Origin: Silicimonas sp.
GTDB taxonomy: Bacteria > Pseudomonadota > Alphaproteobacteria > Rhodobacterales > Rhodobacteraceae
Direction of reading: 5' to 3'
Assembly (NCBI GenBank): GCA_022820365.1
Contig: JAJEFO010000102.1
Span: forward strand, 1 to 43,704
DNA: 43,704 bases
Of this stretch, positions 13,658-41,224 are shown piece after piece. A program made the position numbers and the translations under genes. Each line of letters begins with the position of its first letter. Position 1 is the stretch's first letter. Below the pieces are notes generated by a model. The model saw only the letters and a program-made list of their open reading frames with translations, made no database searches and was not told where the DNA came from.

Positions 13658-14710
13658 CTATGGATGCCCGCCGCCTGAGGTTATCAGGCCAAGATTGCGT
13701 GCCTTGTTGAACTCCCGAAGCCTGGCGAGCACGTCGACGCCGAGCTGCCGAAAGGCGTCGAGTATGTCCACCATCACCCAGTTCTCGCGGATCTTGCCGT
13801 TTTCGATGCGCCAGAAATCCAGCGAGCGCATGGTGATTTCCTTGCCCGACGGAGCGATGCCCAGCCAACCGTCATGCGTCACCGTCTGGATCATGTTGGG
13901 CCATCCGGTCACGGCACAGTAGTTGTTGTCGCCGAAGAAATGGTACGTGACCTGATCTGCCTTGGATCCGCGGTCCGGCATGGCGTTCAGGAACGGGATC
14001 TGGTGCCAGTTGCGAAATCCGTCGATTCCCCGGCCAGTGCCTATCCCTGCAGGACCGTACCAGTTCATGCGTGCATCCCAGAATCGAGGCATCTCCATTA
14101 CCTCAGGGCCGCCTTGAGAGGGGTGCCGTTTCATGTGCTGCAACATGTCCACGACAATGTCCTTGCCGGCCTTGCTCTCCACGTCGTCCCTCGGCGGGCG
14201 GATCAGTCCGTCCCCTGATGCCGGGCCGGGAATGCAGAACTCGCGACCGAGTGACGGTGCCATCGGCCATGCATTCGCTTGCATCATGACTTCGGGGACA
14301 TCCCAAAGCGCCTGGTATTCGACGACCTTGCCGGATTCGAACCGGTAGAACTCGTGAAATCGCATATGCGCCAGATGGCCCGTCGGCGGGATGTCGAGAA
14401 ACGGCGCCACGAACGTGCCCATGAAATGGCCGCCGCAGCCTACCCAATCATGCCCGTGATCGTCGTTGCCTGCCATCACGATCCAGTCACGCCGTTCTAC
14501 GTCGGGCCACGCGGACTTGAGCAATGACAGCGCCCGGTCGTGAAACTCATCCGGTCCCGTCATGTCCCCGAACGGATGGGCAAGGTAACACGCCGCTTCG
14601 GGGGCAAGGACCTCGCCGAGCGCACGGCGCAATGTCGCCTCGCCCCAGTTCCGCTGAGCCGCGCGCAGCGGCTCGAGGGCAGCGCGATTCAACTCGTGAA
14701 TGCTGGTCAT
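13658..14710 (-). CDS. Tandem SnoaL/NTF2-like domain protein (copy 1)
   Basis: The 350-residue protein contains two SnoaL-like (NTF2-fold) halves. The first is near 1-150 (KSAWPDVERRDWIVMAGNDD, then HEFYRFESGKVVEYQALWDVP); the second is near 205-335 (MNWYGPAGIG, TGWPNMIQTV, DFWRIENGKIRENWVMVDILD). It shares WYGPAGIG-, GWPN- and ENW-type motifs with the proteins at 34569-35591 and 35588-36595. Single SnoaL domains catalyse cyclisations, hydrolysis or isomerisations in a hydrophobic pocket; no function is known to me for this double form. It is the last gene of the ABC importer operon (60 nt after the permease), so it probably acts on the imported compound. No signal peptide is seen, so it is cytoplasmic. 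Confidence 0.75.
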   Translation of the reverse strand: MTSIHELNRAALEPLRAAQRNWGEATLRRALGEVLAPEAACYLAHPFGDMTGPDEFHDRALSLLKSAWPDVERRDWIVMAGNDDHGHDWVGCGGHFMGTFVAPFLDIPPTGHLAHMRFHEFYRFESGKVVEYQALWDVPEVMMQANAWPMAPSLGREFCIPGPASGDGLIRPPRDDVESKAGKDIVVDMLQHMKRHPSQGGPEVMEMPRFWDARMNWYGPAGIGTGRGIDGFRNWHQIPFLNAMPDRGSKADQVTYHFFGDNNYCAVTGWPNMIQTVTHDGWLGIAPSGKEITMRSLDFWRIENGKIRENWVMVDILDAFRQLGVDVLARLREFNKARNLGLITSGGGHP

Positions 14711-14771: not shown

Positions 14772-15653
14772 TCAACCCTTGACCGCGCCCGCCGTCAGTC
14801 CGCTGACGATCTGCCGCTGGAAGAACAGGATCAGTATGAAGAGCGGTGCTGTGGCCGAGACAACGGCTGCGACCGCAAACATAATGTTGCCCTGCACCTG
14901 AACCGAGCCGAGGAAGCTGGCGACCGCCGGGACCATCGTCTCGTTCGGTTTGCTCAGTAGCATCGAGGTGACAGCATAGTCATTGTAGGCTAGCAGGAAG
15001 CTGAAGAGGCCCGTGGTAATCACCCCTGGCCACATGACCGGCACGATGACGTTCCAGAAAGCCTGGAATCGGGTGCAGCCGTCGACCATGGCACTTTCGT
15101 CCATGTCTTTCGGGATGTTCAGGAAGAACGAGTGCAGCATCCAGAGCGTGAATGGCTGGTTGATCGCCACAAGCACGATGACGGTTGTCGCCTTTAGTCC
15201 CCAGATGTTCCACTCGAAGAACGGCAGCATATAACCCGAAACCAGCGTGATGTGCGGCATTGCGCGGAACGCGAGGGCTGCCATCAGAACCCAAAAGGCA
15301 TAGCGGAAGCCGGAGCGGGCCAGCGCGTACCCACCGAGCGTTCCGAAGGTGAGCGAAATGCAGACGGTGAAGAAAACGATGACCAAGGTGTTGAATACGT
15401 TTCTCCAGAATTCCTCCTGGATCCACGCGCCGAAATAGCCATTAAGCGTAAAGGCACTACCGGTTTCACGGGTCGTGAGGATGCCGTAGATGGCGTTGGT
15501 CCAGTCCGCCTTCGAGAAGAAGTCGCCCTGCACCTTGAAGCTGCCCCAAACCGTCCAAAGGAAGGGAAAGGCCGCGATGATCAGCCAGGTGATCACGAGC
15601 GCATAGGAAACAACTCTTAGCGTTGTGAGACGGGATTCTGCCTTCGTCGCCAT
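14772..15653 (-). CDS. Carbohydrate-type ABC transporter permease, MalG-like (importer 1)
   Basis: The 293-residue membrane protein has about six transmembrane segments. Its BPD_transp_1 EAA loop is DESAMVDGCTRFQAFWNVIVPV, followed by MWPGVITTGLFSFLLAYND. An extended region between the first two helices contains SFKVQGDFFSKADW. It pairs with the MalF-like subunit at 15667-16698, 13 nt upstream in the operon. The protein at 37732-38613 is a close paralogue of identical length, roughly four-fifths identical by eye. The C-terminus QRQIVSGLTAGAVKG is the typical MalG/UgpE tail that contacts the ATPase. Confidence 0.92.
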   Translation of the reverse strand: MATKAESRLTTLRVVSYALVITWLIIAAFPFLWTVWGSFKVQGDFFSKADWTNAIYGILTTRETGSAFTLNGYFGAWIQEEFWRNVFNTLVIVFFTVCISLTFGTLGGYALARSGFRYAFWVLMAALAFRAMPHITLVSGYMLPFFEWNIWGLKATTVIVLVAINQPFTLWMLHSFFLNIPKDMDESAMVDGCTRFQAFWNVIVPVMWPGVITTGLFSFLLAYNDYAVTSMLLSKPNETMVPAVASFLGSVQVQGNIMFAVAAVVSATAPLFILILFFQRQIVSGLTAGAVKG

Positions 15654-15666
15654 GATTGTCGTCTCC

Positions 15667-16698
15667 TCAATGTACCTTGGCGTTGAAATCGCGCCAGGTG
15701 CGGATCAGCACGGGTGTCAGCAGGATCACAACGCCGAGGATCGTCAGCATCGAGGTCGCACCGGCAGAGGCGTAGAGCGGATTGCCGGCTTCACGAAGGT
15801 CGCTGACGATGAAGGTACTCAGTGACTGAGCGTGAGCCTCCGCCTGGAAACTTACCAGCGGTTCGAACACCCGGAAATTGTCCATCAGAAGCATCAGCGT
15901 GACGAAGGACACGAGCGGCATCAGGTGTGGAACCACGACGCTGATCATCGTCTGCCACTTGTTGGCTCCATCCACACGCGCAGCCTCCAACGTGTCCTGT
16001 GGCACCGTTTGTAGCCCGGCATAAAACGTGATGAAGGCGAAAGGCAGGGTGTGCCAGACCCCGTAGACCATCAGCATGATCCACATGAGTGGCGTCGAGG
16101 CTTTGATGCTGAGGGACGGGTCGTTGAAGATATTCTGAAGCGTTGCGCCGATGATGCCTTCACCATCGACCATCCAGGAAAGGATCATCGAGCCGACAAT
16201 CGTCGCGACAAGGAAAGGCAAGAGCGAGATGAAAATCGCCACGCCACGAAACGCCTTGGGCAGGTTGTTTACGCCGACGGCAACGGCCAGTCCGAAAATC
16301 AAAACCAGAGGTGTCACAACAAAGGTGTAGGTCAGCGTAAAGACCAGGGCCTTGTAGAATTTCAGGTCCATTATGCCATCAATGAAGGATGACAATCCGG
16401 TTGATGTGCGCCAGACCTCAGCGATCTCTGCGGACGCGAGGTGGGAGCGGTCAAAATATGTGGCTAGGCCGTTGAATTGACCAAGAGGCCGCTCTTCACG
16501 CAGTTTGGCAGTCGCTTCTGTATCGACCTGGGTTTCCTCAACACAGCCGAAGGGGCCACAGCTTTCCGAGACCACCAGGACCTGTTCGTGCTGCACAAAC
16601 AGCGACTGGATGAAGACTGAGACAATGGGCAGGGCGATAAAAAGTACCATCGCCGAGAGTGTCGGCAAGATGAACCAAAAAAACGTGCGGTGTTTCAT
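15667..16698 (-). CDS. Carbohydrate-type ABC transporter permease, MalF-like (importer 1)
   Basis: The 343-residue permease has an N-terminal membrane helix. A periplasmic stretch of roughly 100 residues follows (containing SCGPFGCVEETQVDTEA, with two nearby cysteines), then five more hydrophobic segments. The EAA motif reads EAARVDGANKWQTMISVVVP. It forms the heterodimeric channel with the MalG-like subunit. The paralogue at 38617-39648 has the same length and the same periplasmic cysteine pair (NCTPFKCES), suggesting a conserved disulfide. A GC-rich hairpin separates it from the binding-protein gene. Confidence 0.92.
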   Translation of the reverse strand: MKHRTFFWFILPTLSAMVLFIALPIVSVFIQSLFVQHEQVLVVSESCGPFGCVEETQVDTEATAKLREERPLGQFNGLATYFDRSHLASAEIAEVWRTSTGLSSFIDGIMDLKFYKALVFTLTYTFVVTPLVLIFGLAVAVGVNNLPKAFRGVAIFISLLPFLVATIVGSMILSWMVDGEGIIGATLQNIFNDPSLSIKASTPLMWIMLMVYGVWHTLPFAFITFYAGLQTVPQDTLEAARVDGANKWQTMISVVVPHLMPLVSFVTLMLLMDNFRVFEPLVSFQAEAHAQSLSTFIVSDLREAGNPLYASAGATSMLTILGVVILLTPVLIRTWRDFNAKVH

Positions 16699-16732
16699 CG
16701 CATGTGCCCCGTCGTGAAATCCAATGCGTTGC

Positions 16733-16752: not shown

Positions 16753-16764
16753 TCACGGGAGAGG

Positions 16765-18009
16765 CTACTGCAGGAAGCCTGCTTCCTTCGCAGCGGTCCG
16801 GTATGCCGCTTCAACGTCAGCCAGAGCCTCTTCTGCGCTCTCGTCACCCTTGTAGAAGTCCACCAGTTCGGAACCCAGTGCGTTGTGCATCAGGTTGATG
16901 AACGGGATCATCGGGTAAGGCTTGGCACCAGCTGCTGCTGTTGCTGCAACACCTGCTGCTGCCGGGCCGGCCCGGAAGCCGTCAATCAGCCAGATGGCTT
17001 TGTCGTTGTGCTCATCCATCAGATCAGGGGTCAGACCGCTGACCAGAGCCGCAAAGGTGGCCTCCGCGTCTTCATCCGGAATGTTCTTGGCGACGGTCAC
17101 GCCATCCCACCACAGGGTTGCGGCCGGTGTCGATCCGCCACCTGCTGTGGGTGCTGCAGACAAAACGGTGTTTGACGTGACTTCGTCGCTCGAACCTTCA
17201 TCGTCAAGAACCGCACCACCGCGCGACCCCCACATGACGGCCATGGCCGCCTTTCCGGCTTCCCACAGGCCCTGGGTCTCATTCGAGGCATGGCTCAGGT
17301 GATCCGGGTGCGAGTACTCGAGCAGCGACTTGATTGTCCCCAGAGCGGCAATGCCTTCTGGCGAGTTGACGTTTGGCTCAGCCGAACCCGGCTTGAACAG
17401 CTCACCTCCGTTGGCGAAGAAGAACAGGTTGAATATTTCGCCGACGTTCCAGCCAACCTTCATGTTCATCACGATCGGATGTTCCATGATGCCTGCGGCG
17501 CGGACTTTCTCGGCCGCTGCAACGATCTCTTCAACGGTTGCCGGGATCCCTTCGACACCAGCCTGCTCGAGGATGTCGGTGCGCGAATACAGGTGCTGGG
17601 AGTTCGCCATGAATGCCACAGCCATGACTTTGCCGCCGATGGTGATCAGCTGCGACGGCTTCAGGTGCTGGCCGTATTTTGCAACATATTCGTCCAGCGG
17701 GCGGACCAGGTCGTCGTTCATCAGCTGGGTCAGGGTCGAGTTGGCGACTATGACCGAGGTGTACTCTGCCGGGTTCGGGGTCAGAGCCTGGTTCATCATG
17801 TCACGCGTGTTGTCGCGCAGGTTGATGGTGAACTCGCCGGCATTTGCCGCGCAATTGGCTTCGGCGGCGCCAGCAACGGCCTGAATGGCCGGGAAGTCGG
17901 AGCCGAGGATCCGGACCGATTTGCCGGACGGACCACAGTCTGCCGCGAATGCTGTCGAACCCATTAGGCCAGCTACGGCACCCGCGAGGGCTACTTTCTT
18001 CAGTAACAT
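16765..18009 (-). CDS. Extracellular solute-binding protein of ABC importer 1
   Basis: The 414-residue protein begins with a Sec signal peptide (MLLKKVALAGAVAGLMGSTAFA, predicted cleavage before ADCG). The mature part resembles family 1 (MalE/UgpB-type) solute-binding proteins, for example in IGGKVMAVAFMANSQHLYSRTDIL, the cue for a two-lobed periplasmic receptor. The C-terminus (ESAEEALADVEAAYRTAAKEAGFLQ) closely matches its paralogue at 39755-40999, which is also 414 residues long. The gene is second in the operon, after the ATPase. The ligand cannot be deduced; MalE-type receptors bind sugars and glycosides but also glycerophosphodiesters and other polar solutes. Confidence 0.9.
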   Translation of the reverse strand: MLLKKVALAGAVAGLMGSTAFAADCGPSGKSVRILGSDFPAIQAVAGAAEANCAANAGEFTINLRDNTRDMMNQALTPNPAEYTSVIVANSTLTQLMNDDLVRPLDEYVAKYGQHLKPSQLITIGGKVMAVAFMANSQHLYSRTDILEQAGVEGIPATVEEIVAAAEKVRAAGIMEHPIVMNMKVGWNVGEIFNLFFFANGGELFKPGSAEPNVNSPEGIAALGTIKSLLEYSHPDHLSHASNETQGLWEAGKAAMAVMWGSRGGAVLDDEGSSDEVTSNTVLSAAPTAGGGSTPAATLWWDGVTVAKNIPDEDAEATFAALVSGLTPDLMDEHNDKAIWLIDGFRAGPAAAGVAATAAAGAKPYPMIPFINLMHNALGSELVDFYKGDESAEEALADVEAAYRTAAKEAGFLQ

Positions 18010-18035
18010 TTAATTCTCCTTGGTTTCTGTTGGTT

Positions 18036-18089: not shown

Positions 18090-18105
18090 AGGTCATGGCT
18101 TCGGG

Positions 18106-19155
18106 TCAGTCCCCGGCTCGCTCTCCCGTCTTCGCATCGAAGAGGTGGCAGTGATCTGTTGAGATGCGGATCGAAACCGTGTCGTCGATTTCGGCGCGAT
18201 AGTTCTTGTCGGCCTTCACGGATACCAGAGAGCCGCCGATACGGACGGACACCATGGTTGCGTCCCCCAGGAGTTCCATCGTGTAGATCGGGGCGTTGAT
18301 CTGGCCGCCTTCGGAGACCACCTCTGCATCCTCGGCGCGGAAGCCAAGGGTCAGAGGGCCTTCCGGCGCCGAAAGGCCTTCGATCAATGCGTTTTCGGCC
18401 TTGAAGGAACCGCCGCCCATCTCGCCATCAACAAGATTCATGGCCGGGTTGCCGATGAAGCTCGCCACGAATGCGTTGGCGGGTTTGTCGTAAATCTCAG
18501 TCGGGGTGCCAACCTGCTGCACGACACCTTGCTTCATGACCACAACGCGGTCGGCGAGTGTCATGGCTTCGATCTGGTCGTGGGTCACGTAAACCGTTGT
18601 CACGGCCAGCTCATGGCTGAGGTTCTTGATCTGGGCCCGGGTGGAGACCCGGAGCTTGGCGTCAAGGTTCGAGAGCGGTTCGTCCATCAGGAAGACGTTA
18701 GGTTCCCGCACGATCGCCCGGGCGAGCGCGACACGCTGCCGCTGGCCACCCGACAGTTCCGCCGGCTTTCGGTGCAGGAACTCATCCAGCTCCACCATGG
18801 TAGAGGCGCGGCGCACCCTTTCGTCATGTGTAGATGGATCGACACCGCGAACCTTCAGAGGAAAGCGGATGTTCTCGTAGACGTTCATGTTGGGGTAGAG
18901 CGCGTAGGACTGGAACACCATGGCGACGTCGCGGTCCTTTGGCTCAAGGTCATTGACGACACGGCCGTCAATCGAGATTTTGCCCGACGAAGGATCCTCA
19001 AGCCCCGCGACCATGCGCATCGTTGTCGTCTTGCCGCAGCCCGAGGGGCCGAGAAGAACGAGAAACTCGCGATCTGCAATTGTCAGATCAAAATCATGTA
19101 CGCCAACGAAGCTGCCCCACCGTTTGGTGATGTTGCTCAACACGATTTCGGCCAT
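18106..19155 (-). CDS. ABC transporter ATP-binding protein, MalK/UgpC family (importer 1)
   Basis: The 349-residue ATPase has Walker A GPSGCGKTT at 36-44, Q-loop AMVFQSYALYP, signature ELSGGQRQRVALARA, and Walker B VFLMDEPLSNLDAKLR. A C-terminal regulatory/TOBE region from about 240 contains GFRAEDAEVV and VSIRISTDHCHLFD. It is the first gene of the five-gene minus-strand operon. MalK-type ATPases can serve more than one importer, and the paralogous importer at 37732-40999 has no ATPase gene nearby, so this protein may energise both. An inverted repeat at 19238-19259 lies about 80 nt upstream. Confidence 0.93.
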   Translation of the reverse strand: MAEIVLSNITKRWGSFVGVHDFDLTIADREFLVLLGPSGCGKTTTMRMVAGLEDPSSGKISIDGRVVNDLEPKDRDVAMVFQSYALYPNMNVYENIRFPLKVRGVDPSTHDERVRRASTMVELDEFLHRKPAELSGGQRQRVALARAIVREPNVFLMDEPLSNLDAKLRVSTRAQIKNLSHELAVTTVYVTHDQIEAMTLADRVVVMKQGVVQQVGTPTEIYDKPANAFVASFIGNPAMNLVDGEMGGGSFKAENALIEGLSAPEGPLTLGFRAEDAEVVSEGGQINAPIYTMELLGDATMVSVRIGGSLVSVKADKNYRAEIDDTVSIRISTDHCHLFDAKTGERAGD

Positions 19156-19237: not shown

Positions 19238-19259
19238 TTTTTGCATGCGTATGCAAAAA
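19238..19259. promoter_or_regulatory. Perfect inverted repeat upstream of the importer 1 operon (probable operator)
   Basis: Arms TTTTTGCAT (19238-19246) and ATGCAAAAA (19251-19259) flank a GCGT spacer. The site sits in an AT-rich patch (about 19236-19300) that contrasts with the GC-rich surroundings, 83 nt upstream of the ATPase start. TTGCAT/ATGCAA half-sites with short spacing resemble operators of LacI- or GntR-family repressors. On the minus strand, AT-rich TATATG/TTATAT motifs lie just upstream of the repeat, so a repressor bound here would block the promoter. No regulator gene is adjacent. Confidence 0.6.
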
Positions 19260-31170: not shown

Positions 31171-32082
31171 ATGCCGCTTGCCATGAATCACGAGGTCTTC
31201 ATCACCTGTGCCGTCACTGGCGCGGGCAGCACCCAGGACCGCAGCCCGCATGTGCCCAGGTCGCCGGAGGAGATCGCAGGCTCCGCCATCGACGCGGCAA
31301 AGGCCGGGGCGGCCGTGGTCCATTGTCACGTGCGTGATCCTGAGACGGGCGCACCCTCGCGCAAGACGGAGCTGTACCGGGAAGTGACCGACCGCATCAG
31401 GTCGGCCGACGTGGATGTTGTCCTGAACCTGACTGCCGGCATGGGGGGTGACCTGAAGTTTGGCTCGCCCGACGAGCCGCTGCCATTGCGGGACGGCACG
31501 GACATGGCGAGCGCCGAAGAGCGCGTGGTCCACATTGCCGAGTGCCGGCCCGAGATCTGCACGCTGGATTGCGGCACCATGAACTTTGCCGAGGCCGACT
31601 ACGTGATGACCAACACGCCCGGAATGCTTCGCGCCATGGGCGGGCTGATGACCGAACTTGGCGTGACGCCCGAAATCGAGGCCTTCGATACCGGTCACCT
31701 CTGGTTCTCCAGCGCGCTCGTGGATGAAGGCGTGCTGAAGGCGCCGGCCTTGGCGCAGCTTTGCATGGGCGTGCCCTGGGGTGCGCCCGATGACCTGAAC
31801 ACGTTCATGGCCATGGTCAACAACGTGCCGGAGGGATGGACCTGGTCCGCCTTTTCGCTCGGCAGGCATCAGATGGCCTATGTCGCGGCTTCGGTGTTGG
31901 CGGGCGGCAACGTGCGCGTCGGCCTTGAAGACAATCTCTGGCTCGAAAAGGGCGTTCTCGCGACAAACGCGCAGCTGGTCGAGCGGGCCGTGCGCATCAT
32001 CGAGAACATGGGCGCGCGCGTGATCGGACCCGGCGAGGTGCGCAGCAAGCTCGGTCTGACCAAGCGGGCGCCCGTGGCGTGA
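31171..32082 (+). CDS. Beta-keto acid cleavage enzyme (BKACE, DUF849), copy 1
   Basis: The 303-residue TIM-barrel protein carries the zinc-binding HCHVRDPETG motif (H51, H53). Further family-like patches are LNLTAGMGG, CTLDCGTMNFAEADYVMTN, PEIEAFDTGHL and VRVGLEDNLWLEKG. BKACE enzymes condense a beta-keto acid with acetyl-CoA and release acetoacetate plus a new acyl-CoA; one known group cleaves 3-dehydrocarnitine to betainyl-CoA. In this operon, after a CaiD orthologue, that activity is the best guess, but no carnitine 3-dehydrogenase is present in the window. A GGGAGG site precedes ATG 31171. Confidence 0.85.
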   Translation: MPLAMNHEVFITCAVTGAGSTQDRSPHVPRSPEEIAGSAIDAAKAGAAVVHCHVRDPETGAPSRKTELYREVTDRIRSADVDVVLNLTAGMGGDLKFGSPDEPLPLRDGTDMASAEERVVHIAECRPEICTLDCGTMNFAEADYVMTNTPGMLRAMGGLMTELGVTPEIEAFDTGHLWFSSALVDEGVLKAPALAQLCMGVPWGAPDDLNTFMAMVNNVPEGWTWSAFSLGRHQMAYVAASVLAGGNVRVGLEDNLWLEKGVLATNAQLVERAVRIIENMGARVIGPGEVRSKLGLTKRAPVA

Positions 32083-32221
32083 CCGGAGTGTCGTTGCGGG
32101 CGGTTGAGTTCAGGAGCCATGGGCCGGAAGGCCGCGCAATCGTTGAACAATGCCAATTCGGGAGCCATTGCGTTTGGCGCTTTTGGGGCGCCGCATTAGA
32201 CGGAACAACAGGAGCATTGGG

Positions 32222-33763
32222 ATGCAAAAACCCAACATCGTTGTCATAATGGCCGATCAGTTGGCGCCGCAGTTCACGGGCGCCTATGGCCATCCGGCAG
32301 CGAAGACGCCGCACATGGATGCGCTGGCCGCGCGGGGAATGCGGTTTGACGCGGCGTATTGCAATTCGCCGCTTTGCGCGCCCTCGCGCGCCGCGTTCAT
32401 GTCCGGTCAATTGATCAGTCGGATCGGAGCATTTGACAACGCCAGCGAGTTTCCTGCCAGCGTTCCGACCTTCGCGCACTACCTGAAGGGCTTGGGCTAC
32501 CGCACCTGTCTTTCGGGCAAGATGCACTTTGTCGGTCCCGATCAGAAACACGGCTTCGAGGATCGCGTCACCACCGATATTTACCCGTCGGACTTTGCAT
32601 GGACACCAAATTGGAACGCCAACGAGGAGCGGATCGACAAGTGGTATCACAACATGCAGACGGTGAAGGAGAGCGGCGTCGCCGTCGCGACCTTCCAAAC
32701 TGACTACGATGACGAGGTCGAGTTTGCCGCACAACGGTGGCTGATCGATCGGGGTCGCGACCGTGGTGCAGGCGACAATGCGCCGTTCTGCCTGGTGGCA
32801 AGTTTCATTCACCCGCACGATCCTTACGTGGCGAAGCAAGAATTCTGGGATATATATGCTGAGGACAAGATCGAAATGCCTGGGACGACGCTTGGCCCGG
32901 ACGAGCAGGATCCGTTTTCGCGGCGCGTCATGGACGGCATCGAGGCAAGCAAGATTCCCTTGACGGACGAAGAAGTTCGGCGGGCGCGCCGCGCCTATCT
33001 GGCGAATGTCAGCTATTTTGACAGCAAGATTGGTGCGATCGTTAAGGCGCTGGAGGACATTGGCGAACTTGACAATACCATCGTCATCGTCACCTCGGAT
33101 CATGGCGACATGCTGGGCGAGCGCGGGCTATGGTACAAGATGACGTTCTTCGAATACTCCGCGCGAGTGCCGCTCATCATGGCAGGCCCGGGAGTGGCGC
33201 GTGGCGTGGCCCGGAATGCATGCTCGCTGATCGATCTCTTGCCCACGTTCCTCGAAATTGCAGGCGGGAAGGAGTTCATTCCGGATGGGAATCTCGACGG
33301 GCGTTCGCTGATGCCGCTCGCGCGAGGCGAGACCGATCCAGTGAACGAGGCCATTGGCGAGTATTGCGCCGAAATGACACCATCGCCCGTGTTCATGATC
33401 AGGCGGGGCAACCTGAAGTTCATTCATTGCGATGCCGATCCTCCGCAGCTCTTCGATCTTTCGTCGGACCCAAGCGAGATCGAGAATTTGGCAGAGCGTC
33501 CTGAATGGTCCGTCACCGTCAGGAGCTTTGCCGAAGAGGTTGCAGCGCGCTGGGACAGCGAGGCGCTTCGCCGGCAGGTTGTGGATTCGCAGCGATCGCG
33601 TCAATTGCTGAACGCGGCGATGGAGGCGGGGGCGGGCGAAGCGTGGGACTTCAACCCGCGTCGCGATGCGTCAAACGAATACGTGCGCAACCACATGGAC
33701 TGGACAATGGCGGCCGCGCGTTATCGCTTTCCACCAATGGATGTCGCGTCCAAGGCAGAATGA
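32222..33763 (+). CDS. betC: Choline sulfatase (type I sulfatase)
   Basis: The 513-residue enzyme begins at ATG 32222 (AGGAG at 32210-32214). It has D12 in IMADQL as a metal ligand, the formylglycine motif CAPSRAAFMSG with C52, the substrate-site stretch LSGKMHFVGPDQKHGFEDR, and SDHGDMLGERGLWYKM. The C-terminal EYVRNHMDW region is characteristic of BetC, and the length matches rhizobial choline sulfatases (about 512). It hydrolyses choline-O-sulfate to choline and sulfate in the cytoplasm, feeding glycine betaine synthesis. It lies 139 nt after the BKACE gene, on the same strand; joint transcription is possible. No betAB or betI is in the window. Confidence 0.87.
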   Translation: MQKPNIVVIMADQLAPQFTGAYGHPAAKTPHMDALAARGMRFDAAYCNSPLCAPSRAAFMSGQLISRIGAFDNASEFPASVPTFAHYLKGLGYRTCLSGKMHFVGPDQKHGFEDRVTTDIYPSDFAWTPNWNANEERIDKWYHNMQTVKESGVAVATFQTDYDDEVEFAAQRWLIDRGRDRGAGDNAPFCLVASFIHPHDPYVAKQEFWDIYAEDKIEMPGTTLGPDEQDPFSRRVMDGIEASKIPLTDEEVRRARRAYLANVSYFDSKIGAIVKALEDIGELDNTIVIVTSDHGDMLGERGLWYKMTFFEYSARVPLIMAGPGVARGVARNACSLIDLLPTFLEIAGGKEFIPDGNLDGRSLMPLARGETDPVNEAIGEYCAEMTPSPVFMIRRGNLKFIHCDADPPQLFDLSSDPSEIENLAERPEWSVTVRSFAEEVAARWDSEALRRQVVDSQRSRQLLNAAMEAGAGEAWDFNPRRDASNEYVRNHMDWTMAAARYRFPPMDVASKAE

Positions 33764-34059: not shown

Positions 34060-34530
34060 CTACCTGCCTTCGCCAATCCGGAAGCTCATGACTGTGCGTT
34101 TCTCTATTCCGTAGCCAAGACTTTCGTAGAAGCGGCGCACTTCCTCGTTGTCCTCGCGGATCATCAGCATGACCTTGCGGGCGCCGAGTTTCCGCAGCCA
34201 AGTTTCAGCATGGCGCATCAGTCGTTTGCCCAATCGTTGCGCGCGATACTCCGGCGCAACTGCGACATAGTAGACCCAGCCCCGATGGCCGTCATATCCG
34301 GCCATGACGCTGCCTGCGATTCCACCACCATCACTCGTGATTGCTAGGAAAATTTCTGATGAGACACTTGTACGCGCGCTTCCGATGTCGTCGTACGGGT
34401 CGTTCCAGGGTCGTGTCAACCCACAGTCGCTCCAAAGTTCCGCAACCGCTTCCTCGTCCCCGTTTCGAATCCGGCGAATGGTGAACCCTGCCTGTCCATC
34501 GCTTGTCTTGTAAGGCGAAATTCCTGTCAT
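34060..34530 (-). CDS. GNAT-family N-acetyltransferase, YpeA-like
   Basis: The 156-residue protein starts at MTGISPYKTS (GGGAGA upstream). It has the GNAT core: CGLTRPWNDPYDDI near the N-terminus and AGSVMAGYDGHRGWVYYVAV, as in E. coli YpeA. The acetyl-CoA loop is YRAQRLGKRLMRHAETWL and the end is REDNEEVRRFYESLGYGIE. It would transfer an acetyl group from acetyl-CoA to an amine of a small molecule or protein. It follows the SnoaL-like gene at 34569-35591 by 38 nt on the minus strand, so it may be the last gene of the importer 2 operon. Its substrate is unknown. Confidence 0.85.
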   Translation of the reverse strand: MTGISPYKTSDGQAGFTIRRIRNGDEEAVAELWSDCGLTRPWNDPYDDIGSARTSVSSEIFLAITSDGGGIAGSVMAGYDGHRGWVYYVAVAPEYRAQRLGKRLMRHAETWLRKLGARKVMLMIREDNEEVRRFYESLGYGIEKRTVMSFRIGEGR

Positions 34531-34568
34531 TACTGTCTCCCAAGTAAACTTGGCTTCGGCGGCAATGT

Positions 34569-35591
34569 TCACATTGTCGCGGGCACGGGTTCAATCATGG
34601 CCATCCGTCCGAGGACATCGAGGCCCTGAGTGTTCCAGAAGTGCAGAAGGTCGATGAATATCCAGTTTTCGGTCAGCTTTCGTCCCTCGCGGCGGTACAT
34701 GTCGATTACGCGCATGTCGCCCTCGCGATCAGTCGCAGGCATGCCCATGAATCCGCCGTCGTGTTTCAGGGTCAGGTTGGGCCAGCCCACAAGACCGCCG
34801 TATCGGCCTTCGGCAATCATGGCGAGGTCCCCGTTGAATCGCCGTGTCCGGAAGGCGCTGCGAAACGGGCCGGAATGCTGCTCGGCATAACGCGAAATGG
34901 TGTAGGTTGCTCCGATCCCCGCAGGACCCCACCAGACCATGTCTTCGTTCCAGGTCCAGCGCAGTTCATCAACCAACGGCTCCTTACGCTCCGTGTCCCA
35001 GCTGCAGATGTCGTCAAGCATCGCGTTGATGGCTGACAGCGTCGCCTCTCCCTCTGACGGCTCCTGGGGGTCGTAGAGCAGGCCGTCGTGTGTCATGGGC
35101 CCCGGCTGTACCAGATGTGCGCCTGTCTGCGGAGCGAAGTGGTTCACGCCTGCCTGCAGCATCAGGTGCGGGATGTCGAAATACATCGCGGTCTCGGCAA
35201 TGCGGTCGGCAGCAATCCTGTGAAAGGCCGCGTATCGGAGCAACACGACTTTGCCAGTGGGCCGAATGCCAACCCATGGCTCGTCAAACAGCCCCATCAG
35301 GTGGCCCATCGCTCCGACCCAGACCGTCTCGAATCCGTCGATCTGGTTGCGCCCGGCAAAGAACAGGTCGAGACGGCGCTGCAAAGACGTCAACGAGATT
35401 TTCAGCGGCACCCAGAACTGTTTAGCCACCCGCTCGCTCCCGATGATCTCGTTGGACGGATGAAATCCTCGCCACACGAGGTTGGGCGTGCAGTGCTTGG
35501 CCATGGCATCGGCCGTGTCAGACGGTCCGGCGCAATCGAGTGCGTCATAAACCGCGCGCACGACTGCCTTCGCAGTCTGCAGTTCGCTCAA
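34569..35591 (-). CDS. Tandem SnoaL/NTF2-like domain protein (copy 2)
   Basis: The 340-residue protein has two SnoaL-like halves: one from about 1 to 150 (NLVWRGFHPSNEIIGSE, then AFHRIAADRIAETAMYFDIP) and one from about 210 to 330 (MVWWGPAGIGATYT, VGWPNLTLKHDGGFMGMP, KLTENWIFIDLLHFWN). It is clearly paralogous to the protein encoded just before it in the operon (35588-36595), sharing WRG.HP, GIGA, GGFMGMPA.DR and ENWIFIDLLHF, and more distantly to copy 1 (13658-14710). It overlaps that gene by 4 nt. Its role is probably enzymatic conversion of the ligand of importer 2; no reaction can be assigned. Confidence 0.76.
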   Translation of the reverse strand: MSELQTAKAVVRAVYDALDCAGPSDTADAMAKHCTPNLVWRGFHPSNEIIGSERVAKQFWVPLKISLTSLQRRLDLFFAGRNQIDGFETVWVGAMGHLMGLFDEPWVGIRPTGKVVLLRYAAFHRIAADRIAETAMYFDIPHLMLQAGVNHFAPQTGAHLVQPGPMTHDGLLYDPQEPSEGEATLSAINAMLDDICSWDTERKEPLVDELRWTWNEDMVWWGPAGIGATYTISRYAEQHSGPFRSAFRTRRFNGDLAMIAEGRYGGLVGWPNLTLKHDGGFMGMPATDREGDMRVIDMYRREGRKLTENWIFIDLLHFWNTQGLDVLGRMAMIEPVPATM

Positions 35592-36595
35592 GTGCGGGGC
35601 ACTTCGCGGAGGCGTTCGAGTATGTCGATGCCCTGCATGGCAAAAAAATGCAGAAGATCGATGAATATCCAGTTCTCGGCCAGCAGGTCGCCTTCGCGCC
35701 TGTAAAGGTCGACGATGCGCATGTCGCTCGGCCTGTCGTTGGCAGGCATGCCCATGAACCCGCCCGTCGGACGCATGGTCATGCTCGGCCAGCCGAAAAA
35801 GCCGCCAAAATTGCCCTCGGCCAGCCTTGTCACATGTCCGTTATGCCTGATGAACTCCAATCCCTCTTCGAAAGGAATCGTGTGGCCGCGATGATAACCC
35901 TTGAAGAACGCGCTTGCGCCAATCCCGCCCGGGCCGAACCAGCACATGTCAGGCGTCCACCAGCGCTTGAGATGCTCGATCGGCGAAGCAGCCCCGAGGT
36001 CTATCAGTTCGTCGATCATGCCGTCGATGAGCTCGATCGTCTTTTGCCCGTCTGCCGGATCCTGCACGCCATGGAGCAACCCGTCATGGGTTCGCGGTCC
36101 CGGCGTCAGGATCGCCGCCCCGGTCTGCGGCGGGAGCGGCTGGAGTCCGGCCTGGTAGGCGAGGGCGATGAGGTCGGTGAAGCAGGCCGCTTCCATGATC
36201 GCTCCGTCTTCGACCCTGTGGAAGTCCACGTATCTCAGGAACGCGATTTTGCGGCTTGGCGGCATGCCGAGAAACGGCTGGTCCCAAAGGCCCATGAGAT
36301 GGCCCATTTGCACCACCCAGAGACCGCGCTTGCCCGCCATGCGGTTCATGCCTGCAAAGAAGATGTCCGGTCGCCGCTGCCACGGTCCCATGGCACCTGC
36401 CAAGGGTTCAAGAAACACCTCTGCGACCGCGTCGGCCCCGGTCTGCTCGTTGAAAGGATGCATGCCGCGCCAAAGCATGTCTGGCACCGTGTTTTGGGCG
36501 TAGGCCGTGGCCAGCTGGCCCGGGGCCGCGGCATCGACCGCTTCGTAGTGGTCAAGGACGAGCCGCTTGGCGTCCTGCAGGGCGTGCTCATCCAT
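35588..36595 (-). CDS. Tandem SnoaL/NTF2-like domain protein (copy 3)
   Basis: The 335-residue protein has the same double SnoaL-like plan as copy 2: MLWRGMHPFNEQTG and VDFHRVEDGAIMEAACFTDL in the first half, CWFGPGGIGASAFF, FFGWPSMTMRPTGGFMGMP and AENWIFIDLLHFFAMQGID in the second. Its start overlaps the end of the 379-residue gene by 8 nt, and its stop overlaps copy 2 by 4 nt, so three genes are translationally coupled. Two adjacent but divergent paralogues suggest a heteromeric enzyme or two related substrates. No signal peptide is visible. Confidence 0.76.
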   Translation of the reverse strand: MDEHALQDAKRLVLDHYEAVDAAAPGQLATAYAQNTVPDMLWRGMHPFNEQTGADAVAEVFLEPLAGAMGPWQRRPDIFFAGMNRMAGKRGLWVVQMGHLMGLWDQPFLGMPPSRKIAFLRYVDFHRVEDGAIMEAACFTDLIALAYQAGLQPLPPQTGAAILTPGPRTHDGLLHGVQDPADGQKTIELIDGMIDELIDLGAASPIEHLKRWWTPDMCWFGPGGIGASAFFKGYHRGHTIPFEEGLEFIRHNGHVTRLAEGNFGGFFGWPSMTMRPTGGFMGMPANDRPSDMRIVDLYRREGDLLAENWIFIDLLHFFAMQGIDILERLREVPRT

Positions 36596-37727
36596 GGCGG
36601 GCTCCCTCTATCTGCATCATCAGGTCAAATTCGTTGAAGAGCTGCCACTCCCGCACAATTCGCCCGTCCTCGACACGCCACTGCGTGATCCCCCATATCT
36701 GGCAGTGCTTGCCGGTCGGCTCGCGGTAGATCGTGTTGCCGGAGTGCGTGCCTTCCGCGCTCCACCTCGTGGAAATCAGCCAGCCGTCGGCGTCATTCCC
36801 CATCCAGTAGACTTCATCGACCTGCAGCGCGAGATCCGGAAAGGCGCCGCGCAGCTCCTTCACATATTCACGATAGGCGCCAGTGCCTGTGAATTCTCGA
36901 TCGGTCGTGCCCTCGAAGCGCATGTCGGCGTCATAGTGCTCCACGACGGCGGAGCCGTCCCCGTTCCAGACGTTGTCATGGATCGATCGTGCGAAGGCAT
37001 CGGGGTCGAATCCATCGACCGGCTCGGTCTGTGACAGTGGCCTAGCGGGCGCCGCGGCAGTTCGCAAACCGTCCCAGACCATCTGGTCCCGAGGCCAGCC
37101 CGGAGGCGGGTCAGCGGCAAGTCGTGCGGCCTCTTCCCAGAGGTCGAGGCCAAGCTGCTTGAGCATTGCCGACGTGTTGTACAGCACATGCTCAAGAAAG
37201 ATGTCGTTTTCGAGCGCTACGCAATTGGCGATGACCGGGACGCTGACCCGAGTTCCTGTCGGCGGCCCGTAGCGGCTCGGATTGGTGTTGGTCCCTGTAA
37301 TTCGAGTCAGATGGGATGTGTGGAATCCCGCCGTGTCATCGCCGGCCCAGACCACCTCTTCCGCATCGAGAATGATGTCGGGGAAGGCGCCGGTCGTGTG
37401 ATGCGTGTCGTCGATGATCTTCCTGCTGCCCCGCTGCAGCCCGTAGTCGTCGTATACCATTGAATTCGGCGCGTAGCAGGCGTCGATGTATTCCACGTCG
37501 CGAGGTGCGCCTGCGTGATCTGCGCTCTCCCAGATCCTGTGGGTGATCCGCACGATGTAATCGATGACGTTGCGGTAGCCGTCAAAGCCGCGCATGTCCT
37601 GTTCAGGCCCGTAGTCGTTCGGAATCCGCACGCGCCTGCCGCCAGTGTATTTCTCGATGGATATGTCGAAATTCGAGGGCATGTGCCGACGTGCGAGCGG
37701 TCTCGCAGGGTGATGGTCGCGCGACAT
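36588..37727 (-). CDS. Tandem SnoaL/NTF2-like domain protein (copy 4, divergent)
   Basis: The 379-residue protein has two repeated SnoaL-like modules, each with the classical pattern. The first has TGAFPDIILDAEEVVWAGDD near 119-138; the second has RGAFPDLALQVDEVYWMGND near residue 300, then CQIWGITQWRVEDGRIVREW. It is more like canonical SnoaL polyketide cyclase-like proteins than copies 1-3, which lack the GAFPD repeat. It begins 4 nt after the permease gene of importer 2 and overlaps copy 3 by 8 nt, so uptake and processing genes are tightly coupled. Function is unknown; hydrolase, cyclase, isomerase or dehydratase are all seen in NTF2-fold enzymes. Confidence 0.78.
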   Translation of the reverse strand: MSRDHHPARPLARRHMPSNFDISIEKYTGGRRVRIPNDYGPEQDMRGFDGYRNVIDYIVRITHRIWESADHAGAPRDVEYIDACYAPNSMVYDDYGLQRGSRKIIDDTHHTTGAFPDIILDAEEVVWAGDDTAGFHTSHLTRITGTNTNPSRYGPPTGTRVSVPVIANCVALENDIFLEHVLYNTSAMLKQLGLDLWEEAARLAADPPPGWPRDQMVWDGLRTAAAPARPLSQTEPVDGFDPDAFARSIHDNVWNGDGSAVVEHYDADMRFEGTTDREFTGTGAYREYVKELRGAFPDLALQVDEVYWMGNDADGWLISTRWSAEGTHSGNTIYREPTGKHCQIWGITQWRVEDGRIVREWQLFNEFDLMMQIEGARHG

Positions 37728-37731
37728 TTCT

Positions 37732-38613
37732 CTACCCTTTGACGGCGCCCGTAGTCAGGCCGCTGACGATCTGGCGCTGGAAGAAAAGCACGAGGAAGAA
37801 CAGCGGCACCATGGCCGAAACTACCGCGGCGACGGCGAACATGACCTGGCCCTGCTGGCGCACGGTGCCGAGGAAGCTGGCGATCTTGGGCACCATCGTC
37901 TGGTTTTCCTGGCTAAGCAGCACCGAGGTTACCGCGAAGTCGTTGTAGGCCAGAAGGAAGCTGAACAGGCCCGTGGTGATGACGCCGGGCCACATCACCG
38001 GGATGATGACGTGGCGAAACGCCTGGAGGCGCGTGCAGCCGTCGACCAGCGCGCTTTCGTCCATGTCCTTTGGAATGTTCAGGAAGAAGGAATGCAGCAT
38101 CCAGAGCGTGAAGGGCTGGTTGATGGCAACGAGCACGATGATCGTAGTCGGGAGATGTCCCCAGAGATTCCACTCGAAGAAAGGGAGTAGGTAGCCGGAG
38201 ACCAGAGTGATGTGCGGCATCGCGCGGAAGACCAGCGCCGCCATCAGCAGCCAGAACGCGTAACGGAATCCCGACCGCGCAAGGGCGTATCCCCCGAGCG
38301 TGCCCATGGTCAGCGAGATGATGACCGTGAAAGTGACGACGATCACCGTGTTGAACGCGTTTCTCCAGAATTCCTGCTGGATCCATGCGCCGAAATATCC
38401 GTTCCCGGTGAATGCGTCGCCGGTTTCGGTGATCGTGCGGACGCCGTAGAGCGCGTAGCGCCAATCGGTCTTGGAGAAGAAGTCGCCTTGCACCTTGAAC
38501 GAGCCCCAGACCGTCCAGATGAAAGGGCCAGTCGCGATCATCAGCCAGAAGACGATGAAAGCAGTGGAGAAGAAAATGAGGCCGGGAGATCGGCGTTGTG
38601 CTACGGAGGCCAT
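37732..38613 (-). CDS. Carbohydrate-type ABC transporter permease, MalG-like (importer 2)
   Basis: The 293-residue permease is nearly superimposable on the importer 1 subunit at 14772-15653, including TVWGSFKVQGDFFSK, ALARSGFRYAFW, AMPHITLVSGY and the EAA loop DESALVDGCTRLQAFRHVIIPV. The C-terminal FQRQIVSGLTTGAVKG is almost unchanged, so it should contact the same kind of ATPase. It lies 3 nt after the MalF-like gene and 4 nt before a SnoaL-like gene. Clear divergence in the first 25 residues shows that this is an old rather than recent duplication. Confidence 0.92.
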   Translation of the reverse strand: MASVAQRRSPGLIFFSTAFIVFWLMIATGPFIWTVWGSFKVQGDFFSKTDWRYALYGVRTITETGDAFTGNGYFGAWIQQEFWRNAFNTVIVVTFTVIISLTMGTLGGYALARSGFRYAFWLLMAALVFRAMPHITLVSGYLLPFFEWNLWGHLPTTIIVLVAINQPFTLWMLHSFFLNIPKDMDESALVDGCTRLQAFRHVIIPVMWPGVITTGLFSFLLAYNDFAVTSVLLSQENQTMVPKIASFLGTVRQQGQVMFAVAAVVSAMVPLFFLVLFFQRQIVSGLTTGAVKG

Positions 38614-38616
38614 CCT

Positions 38617-39648
38617 TCAAACCACCTTTCTGCCGAATTCCTGCCAAGTGCGGATCAGGACCGGCATCAGCAGGACGACGACGCCAAGGATTGTCAGCAG
38701 TGACGTTGCCGCGGCGCTGCCGAACAGCTGTATGTCCCCGCCGCGCAGGTCGTTGAAGATGATCCAGGAAAGCGATGTCGCCTTGGCCGAGGCCGAGAAG
38801 CCCACGATCGGCTCGAAGACCCGGAAATTGTCCATCAGTTGCATCAGCGTGATGAAGACGACGAGCGGCGTCATGTAGGGCACCACCACGTAACGCACGC
38901 GCTGCCATCTCGTGGCGCCGTCGATCTGAGCGGCTTCCAGCGTTTCCTGCGGCACGGTTTGCAGCCCGGCATAGAACACGATGAAGCTGAACGGCGCAGA
39001 ATGCCAGATGCCGTAGACGATCAGCATGATCCATGTCAGTGAATGGGACGCTTTCAATGACAGCTGGTCGTCGTCGAAGATCCTCTGCAGCGCAGCCCCC
39101 AAGATGCCATCGGCATCCACCATCCAGAACAGGATCAGCGATCCGATGAGCGGGGTCACGATCATCGGCAAAAGCGAACAGAATATGGTCGGGCCCTTCA
39201 CGAGTTGCGGCAACGCGTTGACGCCGAGGGCGATCGCCAAGCCCAGCACGATGACAAATGGCGTCACCACTGCCGTATAGGTTATCGTGAAGGCCAGGGC
39301 CTTGTAGAAGGGCAGATTCATCAGTTGCGCGCCGAATTCGTACAGGCTCCCGGAGGCGTTCCAGGCCTCGCGAACTTCGGCAAAGGCGAGGTGGCTGCGA
39401 TTGGTGTATGTGCCGAGTGCGTTGAACTGGCCGAGCGGGCGCTCTTCGCGGAGCGCTGCCGTTGCCTCTTGGTCCACGGCCACTGAAGATTCGCATTTGA
39501 ACGGCGTGCAGTTCTCGACCTCAATCAGAACCTGGTCGTGCTCGACGAAGAGCGACTGGATGGCGACGGACACGAGCGGCATCGCGATGAACAGAAGCAT
39601 CGCGGCAAGCGAGGGCAGTATGAACCAGAAGAAGGTCTTGTGCTTCAC
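38617..39648 (-). CDS. Carbohydrate-type ABC transporter permease, MalF-like (importer 2)
   Basis: The 343-residue protein has the same architecture and length as the importer 1 subunit at 15667-16698: MKHKTFFWFILPSLAAM at the start, a periplasmic domain with the NCTPFKCES cysteine pair, LREERPLGQFNALGTY, and EAAQIDGATRWQRVRYVVVP as the EAA loop. It forms the channel with the MalG-like subunit encoded 3 nt downstream. A GC-rich hairpin precedes the gene, separating it from the binding-protein gene. Confidence 0.92.
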   Translation of the reverse strand: MKHKTFFWFILPSLAAMLLFIAMPLVSVAIQSLFVEHDQVLIEVENCTPFKCESSVAVDQEATAALREERPLGQFNALGTYTNRSHLAFAEVREAWNASGSLYEFGAQLMNLPFYKALAFTITYTAVVTPFVIVLGLAIALGVNALPQLVKGPTIFCSLLPMIVTPLIGSLILFWMVDADGILGAALQRIFDDDQLSLKASHSLTWIMLIVYGIWHSAPFSFIVFYAGLQTVPQETLEAAQIDGATRWQRVRYVVVPYMTPLVVFITLMQLMDNFRVFEPIVGFSASAKATSLSWIIFNDLRGGDIQLFGSAAATSLLTILGVVVLLMPVLIRTWQEFGRKVV

Positions 39649-39721
39649 TGAATCCGTCCAGCCTCCGGGGCCTGAAAGGAGCGTGCGTCTCGGAATTCCC
39701 AGGCGGACCGGTTTTGGGTGC

Positions 39722-39743
39722 CGGGGCCGGCATGCCGGCCCCG
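39722..39743 (-). promoter_or_regulatory. GC-rich hairpin between binding-protein and MalF-like genes (importer 2)
   Basis: A perfect 10-bp inverted repeat (CGGGGCCGGC at 39722-39731, GCCGGCCCCG at 39734-39743) with an AT centre lies 11 nt after the binding-protein stop. Its position equals that of the hairpin in importer 1, though the sequence differs. No T-run follows on the minus strand, so a role in transcript stability or partial attenuation is more likely than full termination. Confidence 0.55.
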
Positions 39744-39754
39744 ACGATCAAGGT

Positions 39755-40999
39755 CTATTGCAGGAAGCCCTTTTCCTTGGCTGCCGTGATGTAGGCGGCT
39801 TCAATGTCGGCAAGCGTCTGCTCGGCACTTTCGTTGCCCTGCAGGAAGTCCGGCAGTTCTGCAAAGAACGCACCGTGCAGAAGCCCCATGTAGGGCAGCA
39901 TCGGATAGGGATCGGCACCTGCCGCAGCCGTCGCGGCAATGCCGGCCGCGGCGATGCCGGGCTTGTAGGCGTCCATCAGCCAGACGGCCTTGTCGTTGTT
40001 GCCTTCTTCCATGACCATCTCGTTGGAGATGCCGTTCAGCATCGCCAGGAACGTCGCTTCGGCATCTTCGTCAGAAATGTTCACGGCGATGGTGAATCCG
40101 TCCCACCAGAGGCTCGACGCCGGCGTGGTTCCACCGGCAACGGTCATTGCGCCGACTGGAAGCGTGCCTGAGACGACCTCTTCCGTGGATCCTTCGTCGT
40201 CAAGCAACTGGCCCATCGACGAACCCCACATCTGCGCCATGGCGAGATTGCCCGACTCCCAGATCGGTGCGACGACTCCCGTGTTGTAGGTCAGGAAGTC
40301 GGGATTCGAGTATTCGACCAGCGCCTTCAGCATGTTGAGGGTCGCGATGCCCTTCTCGTTGTTGACTGCGGGTTCCGCCGTGCCTGGCTTGAAGAACTCG
40401 CCGCCATGGCCAAGGTACATGTTCACGAATTCCTCGCCGAGATTCCAGTCAGACATCGTCAGCATTGCGAACGGATGTTCCATGACTCCGGCTGCCTCGA
40501 TCGCCTCGGCTGCGGCCAGAACGTCCTCGTAGGTCTCGGGAACGTCAAGTCCGACCTCGTCCAGGATGTCCTTGCGCACCACGAGGTGCTGGGCGTTGGC
40601 CATGAACGCGATCGCCATGATCTTGCCGTCGATGGTGATCAGCTGGTTCTTCTTGAGGTTCTGCCCGTGCTTGGCGACCAGATCGTCAAGCGGCCGGATG
40701 AGCCCTCCGTTCAGGAGCGGCACGACGGACGAGTTGGCAACGATCGCCGTCGTGTATTCCGACGGATTCGCTGTCATGGCCGCGACCTGTATGTCGCGAT
40801 GCTCGGTCGTGTGGTTCTTCGAAAACGTGACCGTTGAACTGGCGCACTCCTCGGCCTTGCTGACCACCGCGTGAAGCGCCGGAAAGTCGTTCGCAAGGAC
40901 GCTGACGTTGCCGCTCGCGATCCCGCAATCGGCATGGGCCGCAGTCGCGACGCCGATGGTGACGGCTGCTCCGGCCGCCATTGTCTTCATCATGTTCAT
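39755..40999 (-). CDS. Extracellular solute-binding protein of ABC importer 2
   Basis: The 414-residue protein starts with a Sec signal peptide (MNMMKTMAAGAAVTIGVATAAHA, cleavage before DCG). It is paralogous to the importer 1 receptor along its whole length: ITIDGKIMAIAFMANAQHLVVR, GHGGEFFKPGTAEPAVN, DEGSTEEVVSGTLP, and ESAEQTLADIEAAYITAAKEKGFLQ. Ligand-lobe residues differ in many places, so the two receptors may bind different but related compounds. It is the first gene of the second importer operon; GGGGAGG precedes the start. Unlike importer 1, no ATPase gene lies before it. Confidence 0.9.
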   Translation of the reverse strand: MNMMKTMAAGAAVTIGVATAAHADCGIASGNVSVLANDFPALHAVVSKAEECASSTVTFSKNHTTEHRDIQVAAMTANPSEYTTAIVANSSVVPLLNGGLIRPLDDLVAKHGQNLKKNQLITIDGKIMAIAFMANAQHLVVRKDILDEVGLDVPETYEDVLAAAEAIEAAGVMEHPFAMLTMSDWNLGEEFVNMYLGHGGEFFKPGTAEPAVNNEKGIATLNMLKALVEYSNPDFLTYNTGVVAPIWESGNLAMAQMWGSSMGQLLDDEGSTEEVVSGTLPVGAMTVAGGTTPASSLWWDGFTIAVNISDEDAEATFLAMLNGISNEMVMEEGNNDKAVWLMDAYKPGIAAAGIAATAAAGADPYPMLPYMGLLHGAFFAELPDFLQGNESAEQTLADIEAAYITAAKEKGFLQ

Positions 41000-41224
41000 T
41001 GGATTACTTCCTCCCCAAAATTATACTAGCGGACTAAAGCACGATGCGCAGTACTTGACAACGCGTTCATGACCCGTGTTCGGTCAGCTCTGCATGCGAC
41101 GCGTCCTGGCAGTTGAGCGATACATTTGCGACATCGAAATGGCAGCATTTCCGGATGGTTTGGCTGCTTCCGTCCAGATCTCGATTCGCGTACAGGGAAA
41201 TTCTTCGGCAAAAGGAGCGGCGGC

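Follow-up and report, generated by a model that had tools for sequence, protein, structure and literature searches.

The stretch of DNA analysed here ("the window") comprises 43,704 nucleotides of contig JAJEFO010000102.1 from Silicimonas sp. (GenBank assembly GCA_022820365.1). An operon on its minus strand, 34569-40999, encodes the receptor and the two permeases of an ABC importer, followed by three proteins that each contain two SnoaL-like halves. These tandem-SnoaL proteins are labelled SnoA, SnoB and SnoC in this analysis, and a fourth, encoded elsewhere in the window, is labelled SnoD (Table 1). The genes of SnoA, SnoB and SnoC are intact and adjacent. The first two start with ATG, and the SnoA gene begins 4 nt past the stop codon of the MalG-type permease gene.

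Table 1. Genes and operator of the two importer operons in the window
Feature	Position	Strand	Remarks
SnoA tandem-SnoaL protein, 379 residues	36588..37727	-	Pfam; model pLDDT 89.4
SnoB tandem-SnoaL protein, 335 residues	35588..36595	-	Pfam; model pLDDT 94.9; 8-nt overlap with SnoA
SnoC tandem-SnoaL protein, 340 residues, TTG start	34569..35591	-	Pfam; 46% identity to SnoB; 4-nt overlap with SnoB
MalG-type permease, 293 residues	37732..38613	-	PF00528; query of the reverse test
MalF-type permease, 343 residues	38617..39648	-	PF00528
Periplasmic solute-binding receptor, 414 residues	39755..40999	-	PF01547
SnoD tandem-SnoaL protein, 350 residues, final gene of the second operon	13658..14710	-	PF07366, 89.4 bits
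Paralogous MalG-type permease	14772..15653	-	77% identity
Paralogous MalF-type permease	15667..16698	-	63% identity
Paralogous solute-binding receptor	16765..18009	-	52% identity
MalK-type ATPase	18106..19155	-	PF00005 and PF08402
Palindromic LacI-type operator upstream of the MalK operon	19241..19256		One mismatch to consensus

SnoA, SnoB and SnoC score 90.3, 46.3 and 44.5 bits against PF07366 (SnoaL; Pfam cut-off 28.4) and 77.7, 32.9 and 38 bits against PF12680 (SnoaL_2; cut-off 27). The two halves are homologous within each protein class, since comparison of half with half by hhalign gives a probability of 99.2% for the 379-residue class and 97.7% for the 335/340-residue class; halves compared across the two classes reach just 2-56%. 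SnoD shares 29-32% identity with both SnoB and SnoC, and SnoA forms a distant class. No signal peptide was seen by eye in the tandem-SnoaL proteins. In comparison with a congener (locus L087), synonymous and non-synonymous codon differences number 48 and 48 in SnoA, 35 and 16 in SnoB, and 84 and 34 in SnoC; the changes are mainly synonymous for SnoB and SnoC and equally split for SnoA.

The two proteins that were modelled with AlphaFold2, SnoA and SnoB, each consist of two alpha+beta domains (pTM 0.90 and 0.93, respectively), and in both of them each half matches NTF2-fold structures in Foldseek. A preliminary description made from the sequence alone had reported three genes for proteins of 335-379 residues with two SnoaL halves each, overlapping by 4-8 nt and lying 4 nt from a permease gene, and had proposed structure prediction as a check for the NTF2 fold. 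The open reading frames and Pfam matches agree with that layout, and both models contain two NTF2 domains at high confidence.

Single halves superpose on single-domain SnoaL-type proteins of the same Pfam family (SnoaL2, 2gex/8r2b; IdmH, 6hnn; 3kkg; 8ysb) with TM-scores of about 0.6-0.8 by target, although these relatives have one domain and the tandem proteins two. The best Foldseek matches that cover both domains are Lsd19 and MonBI-MonBII (3rga, 4rzm, 9kw6, 9kw8), all four for SnoB and 3rga for SnoA. Lsd19 and MonBI-MonBII are NTF2-fold epoxide hydrolases that work in polyether biosynthesis and are not known to work beside importers, and one Lsd19 chain holds two NTF2 domains. Superposition of whole chains is poor, however (TM 0.29-0.33 by query, root-mean-square deviation 15.5-17.3 Å, identity 13-16%), and the arrangement of the two domains in Lsd19/MonB is not matched by the predicted models.

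Polar residues are strongly conserved in the tandem-SnoaL alignment, and each half has an invariant Asp (D141 and D313). Where the aligned single-domain relatives have E-H-W...D, which we take to include the catalytic His-Asp pair of SnoaL-type polyketide cyclases, the C-terminal half of SnoB-type proteins has E-N-W...D; in the alignment of 46 such proteins (A3) the Asp is kept and the His position is occupied by an invariant Asn. Because whole chains superpose poorly on Lsd19/MonB, the halves are SnoaL-like and this motif is altered, we would expect an active site of its own kind that performs acid-base chemistry on a carbonyl compound, either cyclic or polyhydroxylated.

The second importer operon of the window, 13658-19155, is paralogous to the first and encodes a MalK-type ATPase, a receptor, two permeases and SnoD. 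All components belong to the expected Pfam families. No MalK-type ATPase was seen adjoining operon 34569-40999, which may share the one that adjoins the second importer.

Recurrence of the SnoaL genes with one importer subfamily

The tandem-SnoaL family recurs with one subfamily of importers. SnoaL-defined loci were collected by a scan with alignment A1 over one genome per species; it gave at least 583 relatives, and the best 80 were kept. Near-duplicates (L110/L121, L145/L150) are among them, and 6 have DNA in common with the permease-defined loci described below. Genes were mechanically called open reading frames, identified through BLAST matches to a set of 54 reference proteins (E ≤ 1e-8, with half or more of the reference covered), and the locus counts cover only genes that match this set; choline sulfatase, beta-keto acid cleavage enzyme (BKACE) and acyl-CoA genes lie outside it. 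A permease at least 40% identical to that of the window is present in the flanks examined of 50/80 loci, and two or more SnoaL genes are present in 58/80. Of 52 such permease genes, 46 have a SnoaL gene as their next recognised neighbour, on the same strand and no more than 254 nt away.

As these loci had been chosen by SnoaL, a reverse test was run with the MalG-type permease as query. This permease is matched in 14 of 240 genomes of the class, the window's own genome included, and in 53 of 149 genomes of the window's bacterial family, taken at one per genus; all 72 loci outside the window were annotated. SnoaL genes of the tandem family are found in 68 of these 72 permease-defined loci, at least two in 52, and a tandem-type match in 67. 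None of 20 control loci with UgpE-type permeases (the best 20 of 30 matches), from the same bacterial family and treated in the same way, carries a SnoaL gene of the tandem family.

Importers of the MalEFGK/UgpABCE type, known as CUT1, combine an SBP_bac_1 receptor with two BPD_transp_1 permeases, as in the window, and with a MalK-type ATPase containing a TOBE domain, as in the second operon. The window importer is nevertheless a distinct subfamily, set apart by its SnoaL genes and by scores far under the MalG and UgpA cut-offs; its permease reaches 78 bits against the NCBIfam equivalog for MalG, the cut-off being 261.

A tree of 46 SnoB/C-type proteins contains 35 from Pseudomonadota, three from Actinomycetota in one supported clade, and four scattered rows labelled Bacteroidota; the names of metagenome-assembled genomes may be binning errors, and all four of these rows come from such genomes. 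Among the named isolates are Ruegeria, Phaeobacter, Vibrio, Glaciecola, Zobellella and the haloarchaeon Halobellus limi. In H. limi, a plasmid carries five SnoaL genes, four of them tandem and one single, together with a MetE-like gene; the importer nearby belongs to another class, with an SBP_bac_8 receptor and permeases that are about 20-37% identical over partial alignments. At this one locus the SnoaL set still accompanies an importer, though the importer class differs.

Gene islands and their operator

Besides the importer, the fullest islands contain as many as four or five SnoaL genes and genes for a histidinol-dehydrogenase-like enzyme, a short-chain dehydrogenase/reductase (SDR), a LacI-type regulator and a cupin, often with a MetE-like protein, a hydrolase and an RraA-like protein. 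They are found on plasmids in several isolates. On a Ruegeria plasmid, an amidohydrolase gene and a SnoC-type gene face away from a series of genes that runs ATPase, receptor, permease, permease, single-domain SnoaL, histidinol-dehydrogenase-like enzyme, SnoD-type protein, SDR, LacI, short SnoA-type protein, cupin, methyltransferase, MetE-like protein, alpha/beta hydrolase and RraA-like protein. The island of Paracoccus alcaliphilus is similar, without the amidohydrolase, methyltransferase and MetE-like genes, and so is that of Marinovum algicola, where SDR, methyltransferase and amidohydrolase are not annotated. Among the 72 permease-defined loci, many of which are cut off by short flanks, the dehydrogenase is present in 48, LacI in 48, the cupin in 33, the SDR in 31, the alpha/beta hydrolase in 10 and the amidohydrolase in 9. 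The RraA-like protein belongs to PF03737 (Aldolase/RraA). In the MetE-like protein, His-x-Cys, Glu and Cys, presumably the zinc ligands, are kept at 95% or more (16 sequences). On a Vibrio pelagius plasmid (L097, 16815-22981), sarcosine oxidase genes and purU lie downstream of the SnoaL genes.

A smaller operon type, like that of the window, has the order receptor, permease, permease, (SnoaL), long SnoA and SnoB, and recurs in Octadecabacter and in Ruegeria conchae, where the final two SnoaL genes overlap by 8 nt, the same as in the window. In Octadecabacter arcticus, the part of the island from the ATPase and dehydrogenase on lies behind an operon resembling 34569-40999. The conserved unit is the larger island and not the SnoaL trio, and operon 34569-40999 is a related, smaller operon type. 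A SnoA-type gene lies within 30 nt of a SnoB/C-type gene, overlaps counted, in 14 of 86 SnoaL-defined loci, the sole point in favour of a possible SnoaL heteromer.

Other tandem-SnoaL frames of the same genome lie on contigs C59, C66 and C76. Those on C76 are accompanied by a MalK that shares 80% identity with the window's and by histidinol-dehydrogenase-like, LacI, cupin and amidohydrolase genes; the dehydrogenase shares 79% identity with its counterpart in the Ruegeria island. A thiamine-pyrophosphate enzyme is encoded beside this SnoaL island (L017, 6076-7821, plus strand; NF006203, 641 bits vs 456). Contig C55 (L199, about 9.4-12.9 kb) holds a third importer of the same subfamily that has no SnoaL neighbours, and L248 is similar.

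Many of the islands have an operator of their own. Across 68 promoter regions that separate divergently transcribed SnoaL and importer genes, the two half-sites of a 16-base palindrome occur in 13 and 10 regions, respectively, while in 50 rounds of a shuffled control no half-site occurs in more than two. At an operator score of at most 1, the operator is present in 39/86 SnoaL-defined and 46/72 permease-defined loci and in 0/20 control loci. The controls reach 2/20 at a score of at most 1.5 and 3/20 at most 2; at the laxest score the two sets of loci reach 48/86 and 57/72, against the 3/20. The strict pattern occurs in three of six whole genomes, with all five sites inside the coordinates of island loci, and was not found in the other three. 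In the window, the site in Table 1 was found by a search in which 0.08 matches are expected at up to three mismatches; the next best site of the genome lies by the SnoaL island at C76:65812, and three weaker sites lie elsewhere. Paired sites 54-56 bp apart are common (L095, L108, L110, L148, L168 and others), and pairs about 122-125 bp apart occur in L116, L133, L134, L153 and L177, which suggests looping by the LacI protein. The LacI regulator and the dedicated operator point to inducible use of an imported compound.

Proposed role and alternatives

The module is real and recurrent, it has its own operator, and the combination of an importer with catabolic enzymes is of a known kind; the tandem-SnoaL family stands out in it as the putative central enzymes, for which no known role was found. 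We give a probability of roughly 0.7 to the reading that the trio is part of an undescribed uptake-and-catabolism system in which the tandem-SnoaL proteins catalyse steps, the catalysis being what we infer. Many marine bacteria, along with one or more haloarchaea, would use it to take up and degrade a small molecule. The preliminary description had joined the trio and the importer into one system that processes the imported compound, had proposed a neighbourhood survey to look for a recurrent link between them, and knew of no described pathway of this arrangement. The survey bears out the link to the importer (68/72 loci vs 0/20 controls), the trio as a conserved unit gives way to the larger island, and a catabolic role is made more plausible by the island enzymes and by the operator near importer and SnoaL genes. 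No description of the tandem-SnoaL/importer arrangement was found in the open-access literature searched, which does not establish its absence in print, nor in the excerpts available of PMC11382572, PMC11131964, PMC3083659 and PMC6165330.

In the proposed pathway, the periplasmic receptor would catch a small polyhydroxylated solute and the importer would bring it into the cell, where the tandem-SnoaL proteins, as fused two-domain NTF2 enzymes, may carry out isomerisation, dehydration, hydrolysis or other non-redox steps. Oxidation of alcohols would fall to the SDR and the histidinol-dehydrogenase-like enzyme, and the hydrolase and the aldolase would split the product into central metabolites. 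Operons 34569-40999 and 13658-19155 would be two importers that feed one enzyme island, that of contig C76. Judged by its parts, the island would suit a compound with hydroxyl and perhaps O-methyl groups that is cleaved to small acids. Conceivably, tandem-NTF2 enzymes run a new pathway that breaks down a widespread metabolite of the sea, with the ring of a mycosporine or mycosporine-like amino acid as a decidedly speculative candidate substrate. Such a ring is a polyhydroxylated, O-methylated cyclohexenone that bears a hydroxymethyl group and a tertiary alcohol. The dehydrogenase might turn the hydroxymethyl group into an acid, the SnoaL proteins might detach substituents and break the ring open, the MetE-like protein might accept the methyl group, and the resulting tertiary-alcohol keto acid might be split by the RraA-like aldolase. 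Should the island be catabolic, it would point to a common marine metabolite and its breakdown route, both yet to be named, and to a new use of the NTF2 fold. Being compact, borne on plasmids in several isolates and equipped with its own operator, the system is experimentally tractable. Public records mostly name the double-SnoaL proteins "ester cyclase" or "nuclear transport factor 2 family protein"; the former name comes from polyketide work and is probably misleading.

Several observations weigh against an uptake-and-catabolism system. A permease at the 40% identity level was not found in the examined flanks of 30/80 SnoaL-defined loci, 15 of which have at least 20 kb of DNA, and several of these permease-less loci (L118, L128, L131, L135, L141, L154, L178) have a single SnoaL gene; some family members therefore work without this importer. 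SnoaL genes were not found in 4/72 permease-defined loci, of which L194 is a 4.4-kb contig, and L199 (the window's own genome), L211 and L248 are not short. The MetE-like gene is present in just 18/72 and the RraA-like gene in 6/72 of these loci, partly since their flanks are short. No operator was found at operon 34569-40999 with the 16-base motif, nor among palindromes upstream of 40999; in L098 and L182, operons of the same smaller type, a related palindrome lies upstream of the receptor gene. Residue conservation is no proof of catalysis, and we likewise infer the catabolic role.

The tandem-SnoaL proteins might instead be cytoplasmic binders that hold, buffer or hand on a ligand, or sense it beside LacI. 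The presence of several paralogues per island with no assigned reaction would suit binders, as would the loss of the His in the E-N-W motif of the SnoB-type C-terminal half, but the strongly conserved polar residues with an invariant Asp in each half, the enzymatic nature of the close relatives of single halves and the enzymes that make up the remainder of the island make this unlikely. Biosynthesis, in which polyketide-type cyclases or two-domain epoxide hydrolases would make a secondary metabolite beside an incidental transporter, would agree with the naming of PF07366 after polyketide cyclases and with Lsd19 and MonBI-MonBII as the best two-domain matches. It is nonetheless very improbable: the transporter is an importer, as the receptor indicates, its regulation points to inducible use of what is imported, and no polyketide synthase is annotated in the plasmid islands read, where gene tables are incomplete. 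Detoxification or salvage, in which the import is modified for a purpose other than growth, as with a scavenged osmolyte or vitamin-like compound, is consistent with the small type of the window operon, which has no dehydrogenases beside it, and with the 15 permease-less loci of at least 20 kb; against this, the islands combine at least two dehydrogenases with a hydrolase and an aldolase-like protein, as is usual for carbon use, and we consider salvage quite improbable.

The islands were also considered as degraders of 2,3-dihydroxypropane-1-sulfonate (DHPS) or another sulfonate, with the histidinol-dehydrogenase-like gene as HpsN (DHPS-3-dehydrogenase) and the SnoaL proteins as accessories. 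DHPS dehydrogenases are indeed the closest solved structures to the island dehydrogenase (383 bits vs 240 for a histidinol dehydrogenase), and the catalytic Glu-His and Asp are kept in the aligned Ruegeria enzyme. Yet the DHPS dehydrogenase motif G-R-Y-A/S-H with its sulfonate-binding His, as given in the part of PMC11382572 available, is present in 0/36 island dehydrogenases, 35 of which read G-K/R-F/Y-P-M/L, the remaining one not being caught by the pattern. With that motif absent, and with no known sulfonate-cleavage gene noticed in the annotated islands read, sulfonate degradation was rejected as highly improbable. The HisD motif G-S-A-P-L is not found in the island dehydrogenases either, and both of the two tested score over the TIGR00069 cut-off. 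To judge from these motifs, the island dehydrogenase looks like a third branch that would oxidise another alcohol. Histidinol-dehydrogenase-like genes also lie near the importer in L219 and L093, with 44% and 47% identity to the island enzyme.

Neighbouring genes in the window

A GNAT gene (34060-34572) that overlaps the SnoC gene by 4 nt was considered as a part of the system and rejected: it adjoins in the congener L022 but lies about 1 kb away in the congener L087 and about 2 kb away in the congener L088, and was not found in L101-L105, L098 and L182, some of whose contigs end nearby. A choline-sulfatase gene (32150-33763, plus strand; TIGR03417, 702 bits vs 433) is next to the operon. Two BKACE genes are also present on the plus strand, at 41126-42157 and 31171-32082. 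The former exceeds the cut-off of NF053538 (3,5-dioxohexanoate:acetyl-CoA acetone transferase; 507.5 vs 430), and its true start is probably internal. The latter follows three overlapping genes (27153-31167, plus strand) that by eye resemble those of an acyl-CoA dehydrogenase, an acyl-CoA synthetase and an enoyl-CoA hydratase.

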